Origin: Candidatus Peribacteria bacterium RIFCSPHIGHO2_01_FULL_51_35
GTDB lineage: Bacteria; Patescibacteriota; Gracilibacteria; Peribacterales; Peribacteraceae
Reading direction: 5' to 3'
Length of the DNA stretch: 53,707 nt
Assembly: GCA_001787535.1 (NCBI GenBank)
Contig: MFXP01000006.1
Location: 1-53,707 of the forward strand
A program made the translations under genes and the position numbers. Below are positions 17,127 through 45,297 of this stretch, piece by piece (positions within the stretch are counted from its first letter, which is position 1; the number at the start of each line of letters is the position of its first letter). Under the pieces are notes generated by a model, which saw only the letters and a program-made list of their open reading frames with translations, did not search any database and was not told the DNA's origin.

Positions 17127-18413
17127 TCAAGACCAGCCCCTCACCCGCATCGCCTCCAAGATTCTCTTCACACCCACCGAGAACGCCGCCATGCGGTAAC
17201 TGAGCTTCTCGCGCCGCGCTTCCCGGCGCACAGCTGTAAACGCATTGAGCATCGTACGCCTCAGTTCGCTGTCGACTTGCTCCGCCGTCCACTGCTCACC
17301 GGAACGACCTTGCGACCACTCGAAGAAACTCACGGTCACGCCTCCGGCATTCAGGAGCACATCGGGAACGACGGTGATGCCCTTCTTCTCCAGAATGGCA
17401 TCCGCTTCCGGCGTCGTCGGCCCATTCGCAAGTTCAAAGATAAACTTTGTTTGGATCTTTGCCGCGTTCTTCTCTGTGATGACATTATCGAGCGCTGCGG
17501 GAATCAAGATGTCGCAGGGCAGCTCCAGCAATTCTCCATTCGTAACAATACGCACGTTGTCTAACTTCATCTTCTCCACATCGCACACGGAACCTTGACA
17601 GTACTCCCCCGTTACGGAGCCGGTTTGCTTTTTGTACTTGTCGATGCGCACGGGATCGAGTCCCCCTTCTACATAAATGCCGCCATGCGAATCGGACACA
17701 GCAACGATGGTGAAGCCCGCTCCGTGGAGCAGTTCGGCCATGTGCGAACCTGCATTACCGAACCCTTGGATGACGACGCGCAGTTCTTTGGAATCCAACC
17801 CTTCGCGCTCCACCATTTCCTGAATGATAAAGAACGCCCCTCGTGCCGTGGCCGTGTCACGTCCTTCGGAACCGCCGTACGAGAGCGGCTTTCCCGTAAT
17901 AAACGCAGGCGCGAATGTCTTCGTGATCTTTTCAAACTCATCGCGCATCCACGCCATGATGTCCGGATTCGTGTTTACATCGGGCGCAGGAACATCAATT
18001 TCGGGACCGAGGTGATCGACAAATGCCTTCACATACCCGCGCGACACAGCCTCCACTTCGCGTTTGCTGAGTTCCTTCGGATTCACCTGCACGCCTCCTT
18101 TGGAACCGCCAAAAGGGATGTCGACGACGGCAGTTTTGATCGCCATGAGTGCCGCCAGCGCTTTCACTTCATTCTCGTCCGCTTCCGGATGAAAACGAAT
18201 GCCGCCTTTATACGGTCCGCGTGCATTGTTGTACTGCACACGAAAGGCATGCAGTTTCAATTTCGATCCGTCATCGCGCGTGATTTCGATCTCTTTCTTG
18301 TGATTGTACTGCGGTTCTCGGAGGACATCCTGTTCGCGCTTGGACGCCTTCAAACGCTTCAACGTGACTTCCAAATTCTCCTGAAATCGAGCATAGGGAG
18401 AGGATGCGATCAT
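17127..18413 (-). CDS. gdhA: Glu/Leu/Phe/Val-type dehydrogenase (glutamate dehydrogenase)
   Basis: The 428-residue protein has the catalytic region VDIPFGGSKGGVQVNP with its active Lys, the APDVNTNPDIMAWM segment and the NAD-binding motif VVIQGFGNAG. GDH interconverts glutamate and 2-oxoglutarate plus ammonia. Length is that of the hexameric family. The Rossmann-domain sequence VSDSHGGIYVEGGLD is common in NAD-dependent catabolic GDHs. TAAGCT lies 8 nt before the start. The CADD-family gene lies 25 nt upstream on the same strand. Confidence 0.9.
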   Translation of the reverse strand: MIASSPYARFQENLEVTLKRLKASKREQDVLREPQYNHKKEIEITRDDGSKLKLHAFRVQYNNARGPYKGGIRFHPEADENEVKALAALMAIKTAVVDIPFGGSKGGVQVNPKELSKREVEAVSRGYVKAFVDHLGPEIDVPAPDVNTNPDIMAWMRDEFEKITKTFAPAFITGKPLSYGGSEGRDTATARGAFFIIQEMVEREGLDSKELRVVIQGFGNAGSHMAELLHGAGFTIVAVSDSHGGIYVEGGLDPVRIDKYKKQTGSVTGEYCQGSVCDVEKMKLDNVRIVTNGELLELPCDILIPAALDNVITEKNAAKIQTKFIFELANGPTTPEADAILEKKGITVVPDVLLNAGGVTVSFFEWSQGRSGEQWTAEQVDSELRRTMLNAFTAVRREARREKLSYRMAAFSVGVKRILEAMRVRGWS

Positions 18414-20731: not shown

Positions 20732-20817
20732 TGGTGCCATGGGAGGGACTTGAACCCTCAATCCCTTGCGGGAACACGATTTTGAGTCGTGCGCGTATAC
20801 CATTCCGCCACCATGGC
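20732..20817 (-). tRNA. tRNA-Leu (CAA)
   Basis: Minus-strand class II tRNA of 86 nt: acceptor GCCATGG/CCATGGC, anticodon stem CACGA/TCGTG with loop CTCAAAA (anticodon CAA), a long variable arm TTCCCGCAAGGGATT, T arm GAGGG/CCCTC and encoded CCA. Confidence 0.95.
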
Positions 20818-21039: not shown

Positions 21040-21210
21040 ATGTCCCCATCTGCAGATCAATTGGCGAAAGATGCTAAACGCTTGGAAATGGAAGCGCAGA
21101 AAAAATTGAAAGAGGCTCAGGATAAAATACGGCAGGAAAAAGCAAAAATTGATGGCGATATACGTGACCTCGATCGGTCGATGGAAGCACTGAAACAGGC
21201 GCAGAAATAA
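21040..21210 (+). CDS. Short coiled-coil protein, 56 aa
   Basis: An ATG at 21040 opens a 56-residue frame, MSPSADQLAKDAKRLEMEAQ and onward, rich in Lys, Glu, Gln and Asp with hydrophobics at heptad spacing, predicted to form a single long helix or coiled coil. It ends 46 nt before the murL-like start on the same strand. The frame is too regular (no rare residues, strong amphipathy) to dismiss despite its length. Function unknown; it could be a small scaffold for the downstream enzymes. Confidence 0.5.
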   Translation: MSPSADQLAKDAKRLEMEAQKKLKEAQDKIRQEKAKIDGDIRDLDRSMEALKQAQK

Positions 21211-21256
21211 GCCTCTCCCACCAGCTTTGCCCTCCCAAAAATGGCAAGTCTTCGCT

Positions 21257-22684
21257 ATGCTGCAGACTCCCTGCTTTTGCCCTGTGAAAACTTATCAAAC
21301 CTTCATTTTCGACTCGTTCGAATATAAGCCCGGCAAAGAAACGATCTCGCTGCGTTACTCTTTGGATAACGAACTGCACTTTGAGGAGACGTTGCAGCTG
21401 CCAAAAAATTTGGTGACGGGCAAACGAACGATTGCGGAAAACCGAGCGCTGGAGCATGCGCTCTCTGCTCTGCATTTGATAGGTGGCGTCAGTTACTTTA
21501 AAACCTGTCTTCCGAAAACCATAGAAGTGCGTCCGGAAAAACTCACGCACGAACAAGCGGCGTTCTGGAACGACGTGTACGAAAAAGGCTTGGGTGAATT
21601 TTTCTACAAGAACAAAATTGAATTTAAAGGACTGATCTCTTTTCCGAGCGAAGGCATCACACTGCCGCCGTCTTCCGGAGGCGATGTATTAAAAGACGGA
21701 AAGAAAAAAATCCTGGTGCCCATCGGCGGCGGAAAGGATTCCATCGTGACCATCGAGCTGCTGAAGAAAGCAGGCTTTGCTATCACACTGCTGCGCATGG
21801 GACATCATCCCATTATTGATGCGACGGTGGAAGTCATGCAACTCCCGTGCATCAATGTGGATAGGCATCTGTCTCCCCTGCTCTTCAAACTCAACGCAGA
21901 AGGGGCGCTCAACGGCCACGTGCCCATCACGGCGTATCTTTCCTTCGTTGCTGTTGTGGTCGCGATCCTGGGAGATTTTGATGCGATTGTGATGAGCAAC
22001 GAACGCAGCGCCAACTTCGGCAATGTTTCCTACAAAGGCGTGGAGATCAATCATCAATGGAGCAAGAGTATGGAATTTGAAGATGCATTTCGCGCATACG
22101 TGCACACGTACATCACGCCACGCGTGACGTACTTCAGTGCACTCAGACCATTGAGCGAACTCCACATCACAAAACTGTTCACGGAATATCCAAAATATTT
22201 CCCTCTCGCAACGAGCTGTAATAAAAATTGGAAAATTTCTGCAGCAGCTAGCTCCCCTCTCCCGGCAGGCGTGCGGGCGGTGGGAGAGGGGTTGGGGGTG
22301 AGGGCGGAGCTGTGGTGTGGCTGCTGCCCCAAATGCGCCTTTGTCTTCGCTATACTTGCTGCCTTCCTAACGGCAGAGGAAGTGAAAGCAATCTTCGGGA
22401 AAAACCTGTATGATGACCAATCACTCTTGCCGCTCTTTCGGGAACTCCTGGGCATGGAAGGATTCAAACCGTTCGAGTGCGTCGGCACGCCGGAGGAAAC
22501 GGTCGCGGCATTTCTCATGGCGCACAAGCGCGGCGATCTGGAACAGACCGCAGCCATGCAAATGTTCCTGAAAGAAGTGCTCCCGAAAATCCGCAATGCT
22601 GAAAGTCTGATTACCGATGCTCTCACCCCAAGCACGGAACATCGCATCCCCAAGGAATACAGCCCGATCGTCCTAAAACCATAA
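21257..22684 (+). CDS. murL: UDP-MurNAc-L-Ala-L-Glu epimerase (MurL-like)
   Basis: About 475 residues. The centre carries ILVPIGGGKDSIVTIELL, an N-type ATP pyrophosphatase P-loop (SGGxDS class), followed by ITLLRMGHHP and IVMSNERSANFGNV, and a late Cys cluster CGCCPKCAFVF. These fit MurL, which converts the L-Glu of UDP-MurNAc-L-Ala-L-Glu to D-Glu and was described in Xanthomonas. The next gene, 38 nt downstream, is a MurD ligase, as expected for that pathway. An in-frame palindromic insert of about 20 residues (near 331-351, genomic 22250-22310) sits just before the Cys cluster. The start at 21257 is a choice; 21227 is also open. Confidence 0.8.
   Translation: MLQTPCFCPVKTYQTFIFDSFEYKPGKETISLRYSLDNELHFEETLQLPKNLVTGKRTIAENRALEHALSALHLIGGVSYFKTCLPKTIEVRPEKLTHEQAAFWNDVYEKGLGEFFYKNKIEFKGLISFPSEGITLPPSSGGDVLKDGKKKILVPIGGGKDSIVTIELLKKAGFAITLLRMGHHPIIDATVEVMQLPCINVDRHLSPLLFKLNAEGALNGHVPITAYLSFVAVVVAILGDFDAIVMSNERSANFGNVSYKGVEINHQWSKSMEFEDAFRAYVHTYITPRVTYFSALRPLSELHITKLFTEYPKYFPLATSCNKNWKISAAASSPLPAGVRAVGEGLGVRAELWCGCCPKCAFVFAILAAFLTAEEVKAIFGKNLYDDQSLLPLFRELLGMEGFKPFECVGTPEETVAAFLMAHKRGDLEQTAAMQMFLKEVLPKIRNAESLITDALTPSTEHRIPKEYSPIVLKP
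22250..22310. repeat. In-frame palindromic repeat inside the murL-like gene
   Basis: AGCTCCCCTCTCCC at the left is complemented by GGGAGAGGGG in the middle, followed by TTGGGGGTGAGGGCGGAGCT. This CCCCTCTCCC...GGGAGAGGGG unit is of a type spread through many bacterial genomes between genes. Here it is translated as a Pro/Gly/Val/Arg-rich segment, without breaking the frame. Confidence 0.75.
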
Positions 22685-22722
22685 TTCAATCCTACCCCCT
22701 ACACCCTACTCCCTACCCCCTC

Positions 22723-24006
22723 GTGCGTATCGAAGACCTCAACGGCAAAACCGTCTGCATGCTCGGCTACGGACGGGAAGGCAAAGCAATGGTCAAAGCC
22801 TTGGAAACATTTGCACCGCGTGCGAAGATCACGATCGCAGACAAGAATGAATCCATCGAAAAACATCCCATGTATCCAATGCAAATAGGATCGGGATGGC
22901 TCGATAATTTGCAAAATTTTGACGTGATTATCGCATCACCGGGCATTCCTCCGCAGGAACTCCCCATGGATGCCGCAATCCAAGAAAAAATCACAAATTC
23001 TACACAGGTTTTTCTGGATACCATCGCAGATCGAGGTGCCGTTTCCATCGGTGTCACAGGCTCCAAAGGAAAGAGCACGACGGCAAGTTTGATCGCTGCC
23101 ATCGTAAAAAATGCGGGGAAGGATGTCCTCCTGCTTGGCAATATCGGAGAACCCGCGATTGCACACTTAGATGACATTAAAAAGGATACGCATATAGTCC
23201 TCGAAATGAGCAGCTATCAACTCATGCACACAAAGACGAGCCCCACGATCGCCATCATCACGAGTTTCTTTCCGGAACACCTGGATTATCATGGTTCGCT
23301 GGAATCCTACCAAGCTGCCAAAGCAAACATCGCGCGATTCCAGCCGAAAGGAACTGCCATTTTTTACAATAAACTTTTTCCGGAAGCAAAAGTGATCGCG
23401 AAGATGAGCCAAGGAAAGAAAGTGGCATTCACGTGGGAAGATGCGCCGCTTAGAATCGAAGAGACGCATCTCTTGGGCATGCACAACTTGAGCAACATGG
23501 CAGCCGCCTCCAAAGTCAGCTTATTTTTAAAAGTCCCGAAACCTGTGATCTTAAATGCACTGCGCGAGTTTAAAGGACTCCCCCATCGTCTGCAGTCTCT
23601 GGGTGTGCACCACGGCATCGAATGGGTGGATGATGCCATTTCCACAACGCCGGAATCGACCATTGCCGCCTTGGAAGCGCTGGGCGACCGCGTCTTTACG
23701 ATCATTTTGGGAGGACAAGACCGTGGCAATGATTTTTCCGAACTCGCCAAGAAAATCCATGCGTCCAAAGTGGAACATGTGATTCTCTTCCCCGGCAGCG
23801 GCTCCCGCATCCGCGATGCGTTGGAGCAAACAGAGAATCGCATCAAGCTGTATGAAGCAGCTTCCATGGATGAAGCAGTGAATCTTGCAAAGGATCTCAC
23901 CACAAAGACAAAGATCTGCCTTCTCTCCACGGCTTCGCCCAGTTACAACATGTTCAAGAATTTTGAGGAGAAGGGAGAAGAGTTTTTGAAATGCATTCAA
24001 CGTTGA
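22723..24006 (+). CDS. murD: UDP-N-acetylmuramoyl-L-alanine--glutamate ligase (MurD)
   Basis: The 427-residue Mur ligase has the N-terminal Rossmann part (KTVCMLGYGREGKAMVKAL), the central P-loop GVTGSKGKSTTASL, the EMSSYQL metal/carbamyl-Lys region and the C-terminal domain with ILGGQDRGNDF. It adds glutamate to UDP-MurNAc-L-Ala. Because a MurL-like epimerase gene precedes it, I expect it to be of the MurD2 kind that accepts L-Glu, but sequence alone does not prove this. It starts at GTG (22723); the spacer from murL is a run of CCCTA-type words. Confidence 0.88.
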   Translation: MRIEDLNGKTVCMLGYGREGKAMVKALETFAPRAKITIADKNESIEKHPMYPMQIGSGWLDNLQNFDVIIASPGIPPQELPMDAAIQEKITNSTQVFLDTIADRGAVSIGVTGSKGKSTTASLIAAIVKNAGKDVLLLGNIGEPAIAHLDDIKKDTHIVLEMSSYQLMHTKTSPTIAIITSFFPEHLDYHGSLESYQAAKANIARFQPKGTAIFYNKLFPEAKVIAKMSQGKKVAFTWEDAPLRIEETHLLGMHNLSNMAAASKVSLFLKVPKPVILNALREFKGLPHRLQSLGVHHGIEWVDDAISTTPESTIAALEALGDRVFTIILGGQDRGNDFSELAKKIHASKVEHVILFPGSGSRIRDALEQTENRIKLYEAASMDEAVNLAKDLTTKTKICLLSTASPSYNMFKNFEEKGEEFLKCIQR

Positions 24007-24029
24007 TTCGGGTAATCGCTGTCCCATCT

Positions 24030-24137
24030 ATTACCCTCTCCCTGTCCCTCCCCCTACAGGGGGAGGGAACGCCATTATTCAGAATCGAGAAAAATTGCGT
24101 ACTCTCTCCCTTCAGGGAGAGAGACAGAGAGAGGGTT
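24030..24137. repeat. Double hairpin inverted repeat after murD
   Basis: CCCTCTCCCTGTCCC at the left pairs, with mismatches, with GAGAGACAGAGAGAGGG at the right end. Inside are CCCTCCCCCTACAGGGGGAGGG and CTCTCTCCCTTCAGGGAGAGAG, each a strong hairpin. The stretch contains no gene and lies between murD and the convergent small gene. Confidence 0.8.
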
Positions 24138-24195
24138 GAAAAAGAAACAAGGAAACATTCCAAAAACCAATTCATTGGATTCCAATCATTAAAGC

Positions 24196-41343: not shown

Positions 41344-42927
41344 GTGCTTGCCAGCCTCTCCCCGCTTCTCACATTCGCCGCACTTTTTCAGCAAAAGGAA
41401 TGGCGACTAGATAGGTTGCGCGAACATCTGCGAAGCGAGGGGTGGCTGACGCAACTTGCGGGGAAGTCGCGACTCATCCTCTTGGGAATTCTCTGTTGTA
41501 CCGGATTACTCCTCTTTCTCTATGTCCGATTTTCGTACATTCCTTCCCTCAACGAACAGATCGATGATCCCGCATTTGATCCTCAACTGAGTTTGGCGTT
41601 GGGCATGGTGATGGCGGGAGCATTCGTATTGCTCTGGATCGGATCCTTTGCCGCTCTGAGTATGTTGCAAATTATCCTGCGGAAGCAACGTTTCCCAAAG
41701 TGGACGCAGAAAGCATTGCTGATCGTTCTCTGTGCACTGCTTCTCGATGCATTTCTTTTGCTGGCGATTCCGGAAACGCATTTGCTGCTTCCGCTGACGC
41801 AGGCACCCGTCGTTTTTGTTGTCTGGCTGCTGCTGAAACCCTTGGATGCCTTCCTCAAGGAACGCATTCTCGCGAAGGCCGCTCGTCTGCGCGCATCCTT
41901 CTCTCACCTCACCGTCATCGGCATCACGGGAAGTGTCGGCAAGACGACGACGAAAGAACTTCTGCAGCATGTGCTCAAACAAAAAAATCCTCTTGTGACT
42001 CCCGAACATGTGAACTCCGAGATGGGCGTGGCACAGTGGCTGCTCAAAGAACTTCCGAAACTTGATGCCAATGAACCGCGCATCATGATTGTGGAAATGG
42101 GCGCGTACCGCGCAGGAGAGATTGCATTATTGTGCGAGATCGCGAAGCCTTCACTCGGCGTGCTCACATACATCGGCACGCAACACTTGGCATTGTTCGG
42201 TTCGCAACAGAAGTTGATGGAGACCAAAGGCGAGCTGCTGCAAGCATTGCCGAGCGATGGCCATGCCTTCATCAATGGAGATAGTGATCTCTGCAGGGAG
42301 ATCGCAAAAACAGCGCCCTGCCCTGTGACCATCGTTGGAACAGGAGGACACTTGGACATGGAAGCGTTTGATATAGAGGAGAAAAGCGATGGCGTCCGCT
42401 TCCGTATAAAAGAGGAGAATATTTCTCTCCCTCTCCATGGCACACATCAAGTGACCAATGTCCTGCTGGCGATTGCCGTGGCAGAACATCTTGGGATGGA
42501 TTTGGCTTCCATCGCGCGGGCACTGAAAAGTTTTGCGCCACTCAAACGCACGTTCGAAGTTCGCATCGAGCACGGCGTGACAATATTGGATGACACACAC
42601 AACGCCAGCGCCGCGAGTTTCTGCGCCGCCATTGAGTGGGCGCGTGCGCAGCCTGCCGACAAAAAATATTTGGTGACGAGCGGACTCATCGAACTGGGGG
42701 AAGAACAGGAACGCACACATGAACGCCTGGGCGCGGACAGCGCCGGCATTTTTGAGGAAACCTATTTCTTAAGCGCAAAGAGCGCAAAAGCTTTTGAGCG
42801 AGGGCTGGGGAAACCTGTGCGGATTCTCACGAAGAATCATATTCCAATGCTTCCCAAGAACTCTCTGCTCATCTGCATCGGCCTGGTTCCACCATCGATC
42901 ATTCAAAAATTTCTTCCGAAGTCCTAA
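41344..42927 (+). CDS. murF: Membrane-anchored MurF-like Mur ligase
   Basis: The 527-residue protein starts with about 180 residues holding three or four membrane helices (around 40-60, 82-110, 120-140, 145-165), followed by a Mur ligase: P-loop VIGITGSVGKTTTKELL (near 195), EMGAYRAGEI, YIGTQHLALFGS and HNASAASFCAAIEWA. MurF adds D-Ala-D-Ala to the UDP-MurNAc-tripeptide; the anchor is an addition absent from classical MurF. It may bind the ligase to the membrane near lipid carrier steps. Start is GTG at 41344; an earlier non-ATG start cannot be excluded. Followed 5 nt later by the aminotransferase. Confidence 0.82.
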   Translation: MLASLSPLLTFAALFQQKEWRLDRLREHLRSEGWLTQLAGKSRLILLGILCCTGLLLFLYVRFSYIPSLNEQIDDPAFDPQLSLALGMVMAGAFVLLWIGSFAALSMLQIILRKQRFPKWTQKALLIVLCALLLDAFLLLAIPETHLLLPLTQAPVVFVVWLLLKPLDAFLKERILAKAARLRASFSHLTVIGITGSVGKTTTKELLQHVLKQKNPLVTPEHVNSEMGVAQWLLKELPKLDANEPRIMIVEMGAYRAGEIALLCEIAKPSLGVLTYIGTQHLALFGSQQKLMETKGELLQALPSDGHAFINGDSDLCREIAKTAPCPVTIVGTGGHLDMEAFDIEEKSDGVRFRIKEENISLPLHGTHQVTNVLLAIAVAEHLGMDLASIARALKSFAPLKRTFEVRIEHGVTILDDTHNASAASFCAAIEWARAQPADKKYLVTSGLIELGEEQERTHERLGADSAGIFEETYFLSAKSAKAFERGLGKPVRILTKNHIPMLPKNSLLICIGLVPPSIIQKFLPKS

Positions 42928-42932
42928 GTCCC

Positions 42933-44192
42933 ATGTCCCACTTCTCCCCCATTCACCACACGTTCGGACCGCTGGCCGATAGCCGGCAAGTTGTGCGATC
43001 GCTTGGGATGATTCTTACTCCGTGGAACTATTTCCGAGGTGCAAGCGAACAGGAACTCACGAAAGCACTCGCAGAACGATTCAAAGGTGAGAGTTTCTTG
43101 CTCGCATCCGGACGCGAGGCGCTCGTGATGCTCTTTCGCGCGATGAAGCTGAGTGCCGGCGAAGAAGTAGTCGTGCAGGCCTACACCTGCGTCGTTCTGC
43201 CCAATGCAATCCATGCAGCAGGCGGAACGCCCGTCTTTGCAGAGATCGACCGCGACACGCTCAATCTCACCGTAGACTCGGTAAAAGCCGTGCTGACACC
43301 TCGCACGCGCGCCGTCATCTGCCAACACACGTTTGGCATCCCCGCGCCTGTCGCGGAACTCAAGAAACTATGCGAAGAAAAGAAGATCCTCTTGATAGAA
43401 GATTGCGCGCATGTGATTCCGGATAGCAAAGGTCATGCGGAGATCACCGCCCATGGCGACGCACTGATGTTCAGCTTCGGCAGAGACAAGGCGATCTCCG
43501 GCGTAAGCGGAGGATGTTTGATTGCACGAAAACCGGAACTCACGCAGAAACTCCGAGAGCTTTCCACACACGCATCGGATCTTCCATTGCCAACGATCCT
43601 GCGACTGCTTCTCTATCCTCTCTTCTACACACTCGCACGACCGCTCTACGGACTCATGATCGGAAAAGCAGCACTCAAGATGCTTCAGATGCTGCATCTT
43701 CTTGTGCCGATCCTCTCGCGTGAGGAAAAAGAAGGCATGATGCCCCTGGTCATTCACAGGATGCCGAACGGTCTTGCATATTTGGCCCTGGATCAATGGA
43801 AGCGTCTCGATGACATCAATATGCATCGCAGGAAGCTGACAGCCTTCTACAGGACAGAAAGCGAACGCAGAGGATGGCCAAGAGTAGCAACGGCAGCATC
43901 GGATCTTCCGTTGCAAAAATATCCTCTGTTCTTGGAAGGCGCAGAACGAATTCGACGATCACTCAAGAAAAAAAATATCCATTTGAACGATGGCTGGACG
44001 GGCTGCGTCATCTGTCCGGACACCGTTGCATTGGCTGCGACCGGTTACGTCCCCGGCAGTGATCCGCAAGCCGAAGAAACCTGTGAGCGCATCCTCGCTC
44101 TGCCCACGCATCCGGGGATGTCGCTGAAACAAGCACGACGTTTGGTGGACGAACTCGATGCCTTGACGAAGGAGTTAGGAATTAGGAGTTAG
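42933..44192 (+). CDS. DegT/DnrJ/EryC1-type PLP aminotransferase
   Basis: The 419-residue protein has the fold-type I layout of sugar aminotransferases: FLLASGREALVMLFRAM, VVVQAYTCVVLPNAI, IEDCAHVIPDSKGH with the PLP-binding Asp, and SFGRDKAISGVSGG with the Schiff-base Lys. Members transfer an amino group to nucleotide sugars. The C-terminal six residues are encoded by an intergenic repeat word (GGAATTAGGAGTTAG), so the stop lies inside the repeat. The gene follows the MurF-like gene by 5 nt and precedes a FemAB-type gene, so it likely serves wall or surface glycan synthesis. Confidence 0.85.
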   Translation: MSHFSPIHHTFGPLADSRQVVRSLGMILTPWNYFRGASEQELTKALAERFKGESFLLASGREALVMLFRAMKLSAGEEVVVQAYTCVVLPNAIHAAGGTPVFAEIDRDTLNLTVDSVKAVLTPRTRAVICQHTFGIPAPVAELKKLCEEKKILLIEDCAHVIPDSKGHAEITAHGDALMFSFGRDKAISGVSGGCLIARKPELTQKLRELSTHASDLPLPTILRLLLYPLFYTLARPLYGLMIGKAALKMLQMLHLLVPILSREEKEGMMPLVIHRMPNGLAYLALDQWKRLDDINMHRRKLTAFYRTESERRGWPRVATAASDLPLQKYPLFLEGAERIRRSLKKKNIHLNDGWTGCVICPDTVALAATGYVPGSDPQAEETCERILALPTHPGMSLKQARRLVDELDALTKELGIRS

Positions 44193-44265
44193 GAATTAGT
44201 ACAATCTCTTCCAACGCTTTCTAACTCCTAATTCCTAACCTCCTAAAATCCTAATTCCTAACTCC
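44171..44265. repeat. Tandem-word inverted repeat ending the aminotransferase gene
   Basis: GGAGTTAGGAATTAG at 44171-44185 is repeated at 44185-44199, and its complement CTAATTCCTAACTCC lies at 44251-44265, with related words at 44221-44240. The left arm carries the end of the upstream gene. Confidence 0.85.
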
Positions 44266-44280
44266 TCGTCCTGAAATCCA

Positions 44281-45297
44281 ATGAATATTTCCTACGACAC
44301 CAACGAGCACGATTGGGATTCCTTCCTCAGCCGCCAAACATATCGCCCTTTTTTGCAGAGCTGGACGATGGGCGAGGTCTACCGAGACTGCGGACAGGAG
44401 CCGATCCGCCTTGCGGCAATGGATGAACAGAAGATCCTCGGCATCTGCCAAGCATTGTTTGTGCCCGCACGCAGAGGAAAGCACCTCGCAGTGCTCTACG
44501 GCCCCATCGTGGAGCAACAAGATGCCGCTGCGATGTTGATCGATGCGCTCAAGGAAGAAGCAAAGAAACGAGGCTGCGCTTTCCTGCGCATCAGTCCCTT
44601 CGCACCAACGGGATCGATGTCGATTGCAGGATCTCTTCCCTCGCCGCTGCACACGCTTGCGGAGCATGTGTGGCATTTGCCGCTACAAAATATCAACGCA
44701 GATACGATCTTTTCCAATATGCGAGCAACAGCGCGGAATCTCATCCGCCGTGCGGAGAAAGATGGTGTCACCGTACGCGCATCGAAGGATCCGAATAGGG
44801 AAATCGAGGAATTCCTGCGCCTGCACGATGAAACGCGGAAGCGCCACGGCTTTACGCCGTACACGAATGCTTTTTTCCGAGCGCAAGTGAAACATTTTGC
44901 TCCAAAGAATCAGTGCACCCTCTATCTGGCGGAATTCCAAGGAAAAGTGATCGCCGCGTCCATCCACATGCACGTATTCGGTGAAACCAGTTACCACCAC
45001 GGCGCGAGTTCCTATGAACACCGAAAAATTCCCGCGAGTTACCTGCTGCAGTGGACAGCCATTTGCGATGCACTCAAGCGCGGCGATAGCATCTATAACT
45101 TTTGGGGCATCGCACCTGTAGATGCCGATGGCAAAGCCGCAGACCCCAAGCATCCCTTCGCAGGCGTCACGCTGTTTAAGACCGGTTTCGGCGGCAAACT
45201 CCTGACACTGGAACACTGCCGCGATGTGCCGCTTTCCAAGCTCTATTACGCCACGCGCGCATTTGAAACCTTCCGAAAGTGGAAGCGAGGATTCTGA
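44281..45297 (+). CDS. FemAB-type peptidoglycan bridge/aminoacyl transferase
   Basis: The 338-residue protein has the two GNAT-like lobes of FemABX enzymes: FLSRQTYRPFLQSWTMGEVY at the start, GKHLAVLYGPIVEQQ, MRATARNLIRRAEKDGVTV (a typical FemX motif) and SYHHGASSYEHRKIPASYLLQWTAICDAL with YNFWGIAP. FemX-type transferases add amino acids from tRNA to the stem peptide. In CPR the same family may have other acceptors. The gene stands in a cell-wall run after the MurF-like and aminotransferase genes. The following gene's -10 box overlaps its stop codon. Confidence 0.88.
   Translation: MNISYDTNEHDWDSFLSRQTYRPFLQSWTMGEVYRDCGQEPIRLAAMDEQKILGICQALFVPARRGKHLAVLYGPIVEQQDAAAMLIDALKEEAKKRGCAFLRISPFAPTGSMSIAGSLPSPLHTLAEHVWHLPLQNINADTIFSNMRATARNLIRRAEKDGVTVRASKDPNREIEEFLRLHDETRKRHGFTPYTNAFFRAQVKHFAPKNQCTLYLAEFQGKVIAASIHMHVFGETSYHHGASSYEHRKIPASYLLQWTAICDALKRGDSIYNFWGIAPVDADGKAADPKHPFAGVTLFKTGFGGKLLTLEHCRDVPLSKLYYATRAFETFRKWKRGF

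Follow-up and report, generated by a model that had tools for sequence, protein, structure and literature searches.

A MurL-MurD2 gene pair in Candidatus Peribacteria predicted to take the place of glutamate racemase

Here, the gene pair murL and murD2 is described, located in a stretch of 53,707 nucleotides (the window) from a genome of Candidatus Peribacteria (1.196 Mb, 18 contigs, 99.2% complete). Judged by sequence, the pair very probably constitutes a MurL-MurD2 module that is used in place of glutamate racemase. The D-glutamate (D-Glu) of the cell wall of this organism would most likely arise by attaching L-glutamate (L-Glu) first and subsequently flipping it in place. For Xanthomonas oryzae, both reactions as well as the requirement of ATP-to-AMP conversion have been shown (PMC8788868, PMC5808125), with MurL and MurD2 encoded by XOO_1319 and XOO_1320 (Feng et al., 2017, as reviewed in PMC8788868). 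We infer that the enzymes of Candidatus Peribacteria would perform the same reactions as the X. oryzae pair.

The first-pass annotation of this DNA read the locus as a MurL-like epimerase gene followed by murD and proposed ligation of L-Glu followed by epimerization, bypassing the racemase. The gene assignment was borne out by matches to the families NF041275 and TIGR01087, and the proposed route is supported by the MurL and MurD2 sequences, the MurD tree and the lack of MurI and Aminotran_4 proteins. The murL gene (21257-22684, + strand) encodes 475 amino acids (aa) from the likelier start codon ATG 21257, TTG 21227 being the longest option. On the same strand and after a spacing of 38 bp, murD2 (22723-24006) starts with GTG 22723 and encodes 427 aa of a predicted UDP-MurNAc-L-Ala L-glutamate ligase.

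For MurL, residues 11-469 match NCBIfam NF041275 (E=8.3e-121, 403.6 bits), a score below the equivalog cut-off of 700 bits, which was set on Xanthomonadales and is reached by no genome of the phylum sample of 380 genomes. The protein is 38% identical to MurL of Xanthomonas sacchari, and its closest named relatives in GTDB genomes belong to Candidatus Peribacteraceae / Peribacteria. Within an alignment of 61 MurLs (the window, 57 Patescibacteria loci, one weak paralogue, X. sacchari and Pseudonocardia), Gly159, Ser162, His266, Gln267, Lys270, Ser320, Asn322, Lys359 and Cys408 are invariant, while Tyr80, Lys82, Lys160, Asp161, Arg203, His221, Glu249, Glu301 and the cysteines 321, 354, 357 and 360 are nearly so. 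The window MurL keeps every one of these residues, and X. sacchari MurL has the residues invariant in the 57 phylum MurLs at all positions that were compared. The loss of catalytic residues, which the first-pass annotation had named as grounds for abandoning its proposal, is therefore not seen among the conserved positions.

The second protein matches TIGR01087 with 299.8 bits (cut-off 212). In E. coli numbering, the window MurD carries Glu182, Ile319, Thr321, Arg348, Pro414, Ser415 and Tyr416. Of the corresponding E. coli residues, Thr321, Lys348 and Ser415 contact the bound D-Glu. At positions 182/319/348/414/416, X. sacchari MurD2 displays Glu/Ile/Arg/Pro/Phe and the E. coli enzyme Asp/Lys/Lys/Ala/Leu. 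In X. oryzae MurD2, Glu197, Arg358, Pro433 and Phe435 correspond to E. coli Asp182, Lys348, Ala414 and Leu416, and the exchange E197D/R358K turns this enzyme into one using D-Glu (PMC8788868). At the two specificity-switching positions 182 and 348 the window protein matches MurD2 exactly, with Tyr instead of Phe at 416. The same residues mark the MurL-linked MurDs of the phylum sample when compared to 49 MurDs from genomes with MurI or with neither MurI nor MurL: Arg348 is found in 46 of 51 (Lys in 49/49 others), Ile319 in 35/51 and Pro414 in 29/51, the latter two in none of the 49. In the MurD tree, which had been suggested as a check, the window MurD lies apart from the MurDs of murI genomes, within a starred set of 42 rows comprising 41 MurL-linked MurDs and X. 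sacchari MurD2; no MurI-linked MurD falls inside this set. The assignment as a MurD2-type, L-Glu-ligating enzyme is well supported by these residues and the tree.

Other sources of D-Glu were sought in the same genome, as had also been suggested. A canonical murI is absent, since TIGR00067 had no match at E<=0.001, and the family searches, none of which was aimed at DapF, YkuD or GlyA, revealed no protein of the Aminotran_4 family (class IV, the fold of D-amino-acid transaminase). The sole PF01177 protein (L001, G000:C4:137471-138112) is a YgeA-like racemase of the aspartate type (TIGR00035, 153.7 bits). As a MurI candidate it was rejected by its score with the glutamate racemase model (16.8 bits, cut-off 146.65) and by its active-site motif, in which Ala replaces the first catalytic Cys (IPANSVH) and the second Cys is retained.

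The presence of this protein allows for an alternative, in which free D-Glu from the YgeA-like racemase would feed an ordinary D-Glu-ligating MurD and MurL would serve another purpose or as a backup. The one-Cys relative L-DER from E. coli, with Thr for the first Cys, does convert L- to D-Asp irreversibly (PMC8142540). However, in addition to the low score and the missing Cys, any PF01177 match is present in only 11 of the 40 genomes of the window's family in comparison to MurL in 37, and the window MurD has the MurD2 residues and groups with MurD2, which renders this alternative highly improbable.

Equally improbable appears a scenario in which a relic or broad-specificity MurD persists next to MurL and D-Glu or muropeptides are obtained from a host or neighbor. 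Candidatus Peribacteria is uncultured and reduced, and some wall precursors may indeed be scavenged: no alanine racemase C-terminal domain was found in the 40 family genomes, and D-Ala-D-Ala ligase seems to be absent, the only hit in the window's genome being an open reading frame (ORF) of 1179 aa with two matches and the size of a carbamoyl-phosphate synthase. On the contrary, murL and murD are intact, conserved across the family and strictly linked, MurC, MurE and a MurF-like ligase are present, and all 40 family genomes have D,D-transpeptidase domains despite the lack of the alanine racemase domain.

The distribution within the phylum argues in the same direction as the proteins themselves. 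With MurL counted as strong matches and MurI at >=100 bits, the 380 genomes comprise 58 with MurL, 115 with MurI and none with both (Fisher p=1.3e-10, phylogeny ignored). In the class of the window, families f1, f3 and f4 have MurL without MurI, and families f2, f5, f6, f7 and f8 the reverse. In the window's own family, MurL is missing from three genomes; two of these are incomplete, and the third, G406, is complete and encodes a canonical MurI in which both cysteines are kept. Furthermore, MurL adjoins MurD in 53 of the 58 genomes. In 11 genomes both are fused in a single ORF of 731-907 codons with MurL at the N-terminus, and in 8 genomes the order is reversed to MurD-MurL. The fusions are strong evidence that the two proteins act together. 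A MurD2 ORF of 621 codons (L092, G294) harbors about 160 extra residues within the match.

That MurL might act on a different peptide, with the MurD linkage reflecting mere shared wall biology, is the least probable alternative: the MurLs predicted in Patescibacteria have identities of 26-57% with the window MurL and stay below the equivalog cut-off, but all invariant residues are common to X. sacchari MurL, direct MurL-MurD fusions exist and the two proteins MurL and MurI are mutually exclusive among the sampled phylum genomes.

Some points weigh against the proposed MurL-MurD2 route. Glu182 is also present in 8/31 MurDs of MurI genomes. Streptococcus mutans MurD has Arg348 and nevertheless uses D-Glu (PMC8788868); Arg348 alone is not diagnostic and was rejected as a sufficient MurD2 marker. 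The YgeA-like racemase could make a minor share of the D-Glu, which is conceivable because the reaction of E. coli L-DER runs from L to D. In Chlamydia, Glu racemase activity is known for DapF (PMC5885031), for which no search was made here. Finally, one genome (G383) contains MurL plus a contig with MurD-MurI-MurC, and this contig may be a contamination.

In the literature, MurL is described as a protein without known conserved domain (PMC8788868, PMC5808125). The window MurL likewise matched no family in a sequence search against Pfam and gave only weak matches in a single-sequence search against the PDB. An AlphaFold2 model built from 57 aligned sequences (pLDDT 91.4) was compared to the PDB by Foldseek; the best match was QueC (E=6.6e-5, TM 0.65 by target), followed by QatC and TtuA and, lower down, ThiI and MnmA, all of which are PP-loop ATP pyrophosphatases. 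Independent of the fold, the sequence profile matches TtuA (E=4.6e-6) and also MnmA at GGGKDS (residues 157-162), a PP-loop motif of the SGGxDS type that, within an HUP fold, characterizes the superfamily. The model thus shows MurL as a QueC-like PP-loop ATP pyrophosphatase.

For X. oryzae MurL, ATP is consumed and AMP released, and an adenylation of the alpha-carboxylate has been proposed (PMC8788868, PMC5808125). A PP-loop domain would supply the chemistry for this step. In the proposed mechanism, MurD2 would first join ordinary L-Glu to UDP-MurNAc-L-Ala. With consumption of ATP and release of AMP, MurL would subsequently activate this L-Glu at its alpha-carboxylate, probably as an adenylate formed at the PP-loop ATP-pyrophosphatase domain of MurL, and would then invert the residue to D-Glu in place. 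For the proton step at C-alpha, the candidate residues are the invariant His266, Lys270 and Cys408. The cysteine cluster (C321 and C354xxC357xxC360) may form a structural metal site, since in two MurLs (L102 of G190 and L108 of G067) all four cysteines are gone together while the invariant residues are retained. The PP-loop assignment opens the mechanism of MurL to mutational testing.

Within the MurD tree, the MurL-linked MurDs occupy more than one position, and the label requires 4-5 changes in comparison to 34 when shuffled. In addition to the main MurD2 set, eight MurDs with the order MurD-MurL form a starred clade, and two single MurL-linked MurDs lie inside MurI-linked groups, namely G269 of family f129 and G353 of family f79, whose family mates G278 and G122, respectively, bear MurI. 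Either Arg348 or the loss of Thr321 is seen in 51/51 MurL-linked MurDs and in 0/49 of the others, which suggests that MurI has been switched to MurL repeatedly in the phylum. This combined rule was found post hoc and is put forward as a working hypothesis; a sign test of residue change versus MurL switching has low power, with only three independent contrasts on the starred branches.

Taken together, these data allow a tentative joint reading, to which we give slightly less than an even chance. MurL would be a PP-loop carboxylate adenylase of the QueC type turned epimerase, and would have replaced MurI at least three times in the Patescibacteria, with a D-Glu MurD becoming specific for L-Glu each time. 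As part of this tentative reading, Xanthomonas and the window would exemplify one route, which leads from Lys348 to Arg and is accompanied by Ile or Leu319 and in many cases by Pro414. A second one, just as tentative, would proceed via the loss of Thr321, in many cases without a change of Lys348, and would be seen mainly in the clade with the order MurD-MurL. Both the fusions and the recent intra-family switches (G269/G278 and G353/G122) represent ready pairs for testing the change of MurD chirality.

An extra feature of the window MurL is an in-frame, repeat-like insert (22253-22309, + strand; about SPLPAGVRAVGEGLGVRA), which was identified in the alignment and carries the inverted repeat CCCCTCTCCC...GGGAGAGGGG. 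It lies in a loop before the Cys cluster that is disordered in the AlphaFold2 model, with low pLDDT at residues 341-348, and it is expected to leave catalysis unaffected. In-frame inserts before the WCxxCxKC motif are present in about 21 of 35 MurLs of Peribacteraceae. The comparison, which covered the window, L072, L074, L092 and L240-L259, revealed that they vary by genome, with palindromes (CCCTCTCCC..GGGAGAGGG), tandem units of GTCAGCG or GTTCCCGA, and GGCTTGCCACGCGAAGCT-type elements. By analogy to the Rickettsia palindromic elements, it looks as if a single loop has been hit repeatedly by dispersed repeats.

In the surroundings of the pair, the first-pass annotation had placed a small coiled-coil gene in front of murL. 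The reading frame (21040 to 21210 or 21213, + strand, 56 aa) does exist, but it may not be a gene, and its membership in the module was rejected, since it is not conserved near murL and 23 Peribacteria loci yielded no relative adjacent to murL (best tblastn hit at E=5.9). C/T-rich repeats (cctaccccctacaccctactccctacccc) separate murL from murD2 (22685-22722), and a palindromic repeat (ccctctccct..agggagagag) is located 3' of murD2 within 24025-24140. Just upstream of the murL region lies a tRNA-Leu (CAA) gene (20732-20817, - strand). A glutamate dehydrogenase gene (17127-18413, - strand), about 3 kb from murL, likely supplies L-Glu. Further downstream, a possible second wall cluster (41344-45297) begins with a MurF-like ligase, whose hydrophobic N-terminal region probably lies in the membrane, and continues with a DegT-type aminotransferase and a protein of the FemAB family.

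In published accounts, MurL and MurD2 are confined to a rather small number of genera among Gammaproteobacteria, Alphaproteobacteria and actinobacteria (PMC8788868, PMC5808125). Beyond these taxa, MurL relatives were also found in Bacteroidales, Magnetococcales, Myxococcota, Methylomonas and Marinicella. A literature search that did not extend to most subscription papers found neither a description of MurL from Patescibacteria nor any mention of MurL-MurD2 fusions or of MurL having a PP-loop fold. The route itself is known; the host group, the fusions and the repeated switches appear to be new. In Peribacteraceae, MurL would be the standard way to D-Glu, and it occurs in about 15% of the phylum sample as an alternative to MurI. 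For such genomes, reconstructions of wall synthesis would be mistaken in taking 'no murI' to mean that the pathway is missing.

Compared to known systems, the glutamate racemase MurI serves the same pathway step, the D-Glu of the stem peptide. It is unrelated to MurL, works on free glutamate and is absent from the window's genome. YgeA and E. coli L-DER represent the class of the only Asp/Glu racemase homologue in this genome, which is not linked to genes of the wall, occurs sporadically within the family and is devoid of the first catalytic Cys. QueC, TtuA, MnmA and ThiI resemble MurL in the predicted fold and the PP-loop GGGKDS, and the C...CxxCxxC cluster presumably resembles the zinc site of QueC. 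Unlike these enzymes, MurL contains N- and C-terminal regions of its own as well as the invariant residues His-Gln-x-x-Lys and Cys408, and its substrate is a nucleotide-linked dipeptide. The closest counterpart is the MurL/MurD2 pair of Xanthomonas, which has in common with the window the families, the specificity residues and the absence of murI and D-amino-acid transaminase, and in X. sacchari also the gene order murL-murD2. In contrast to Xanthomonas, the host is Candidatus Peribacteria, with 29% identity for MurD next to the value given above for MurL, the window MurL has the repeat-like loop insert, and its relatives within the phylum display MurL-MurD2 fusions as well as the order MurD-MurL.
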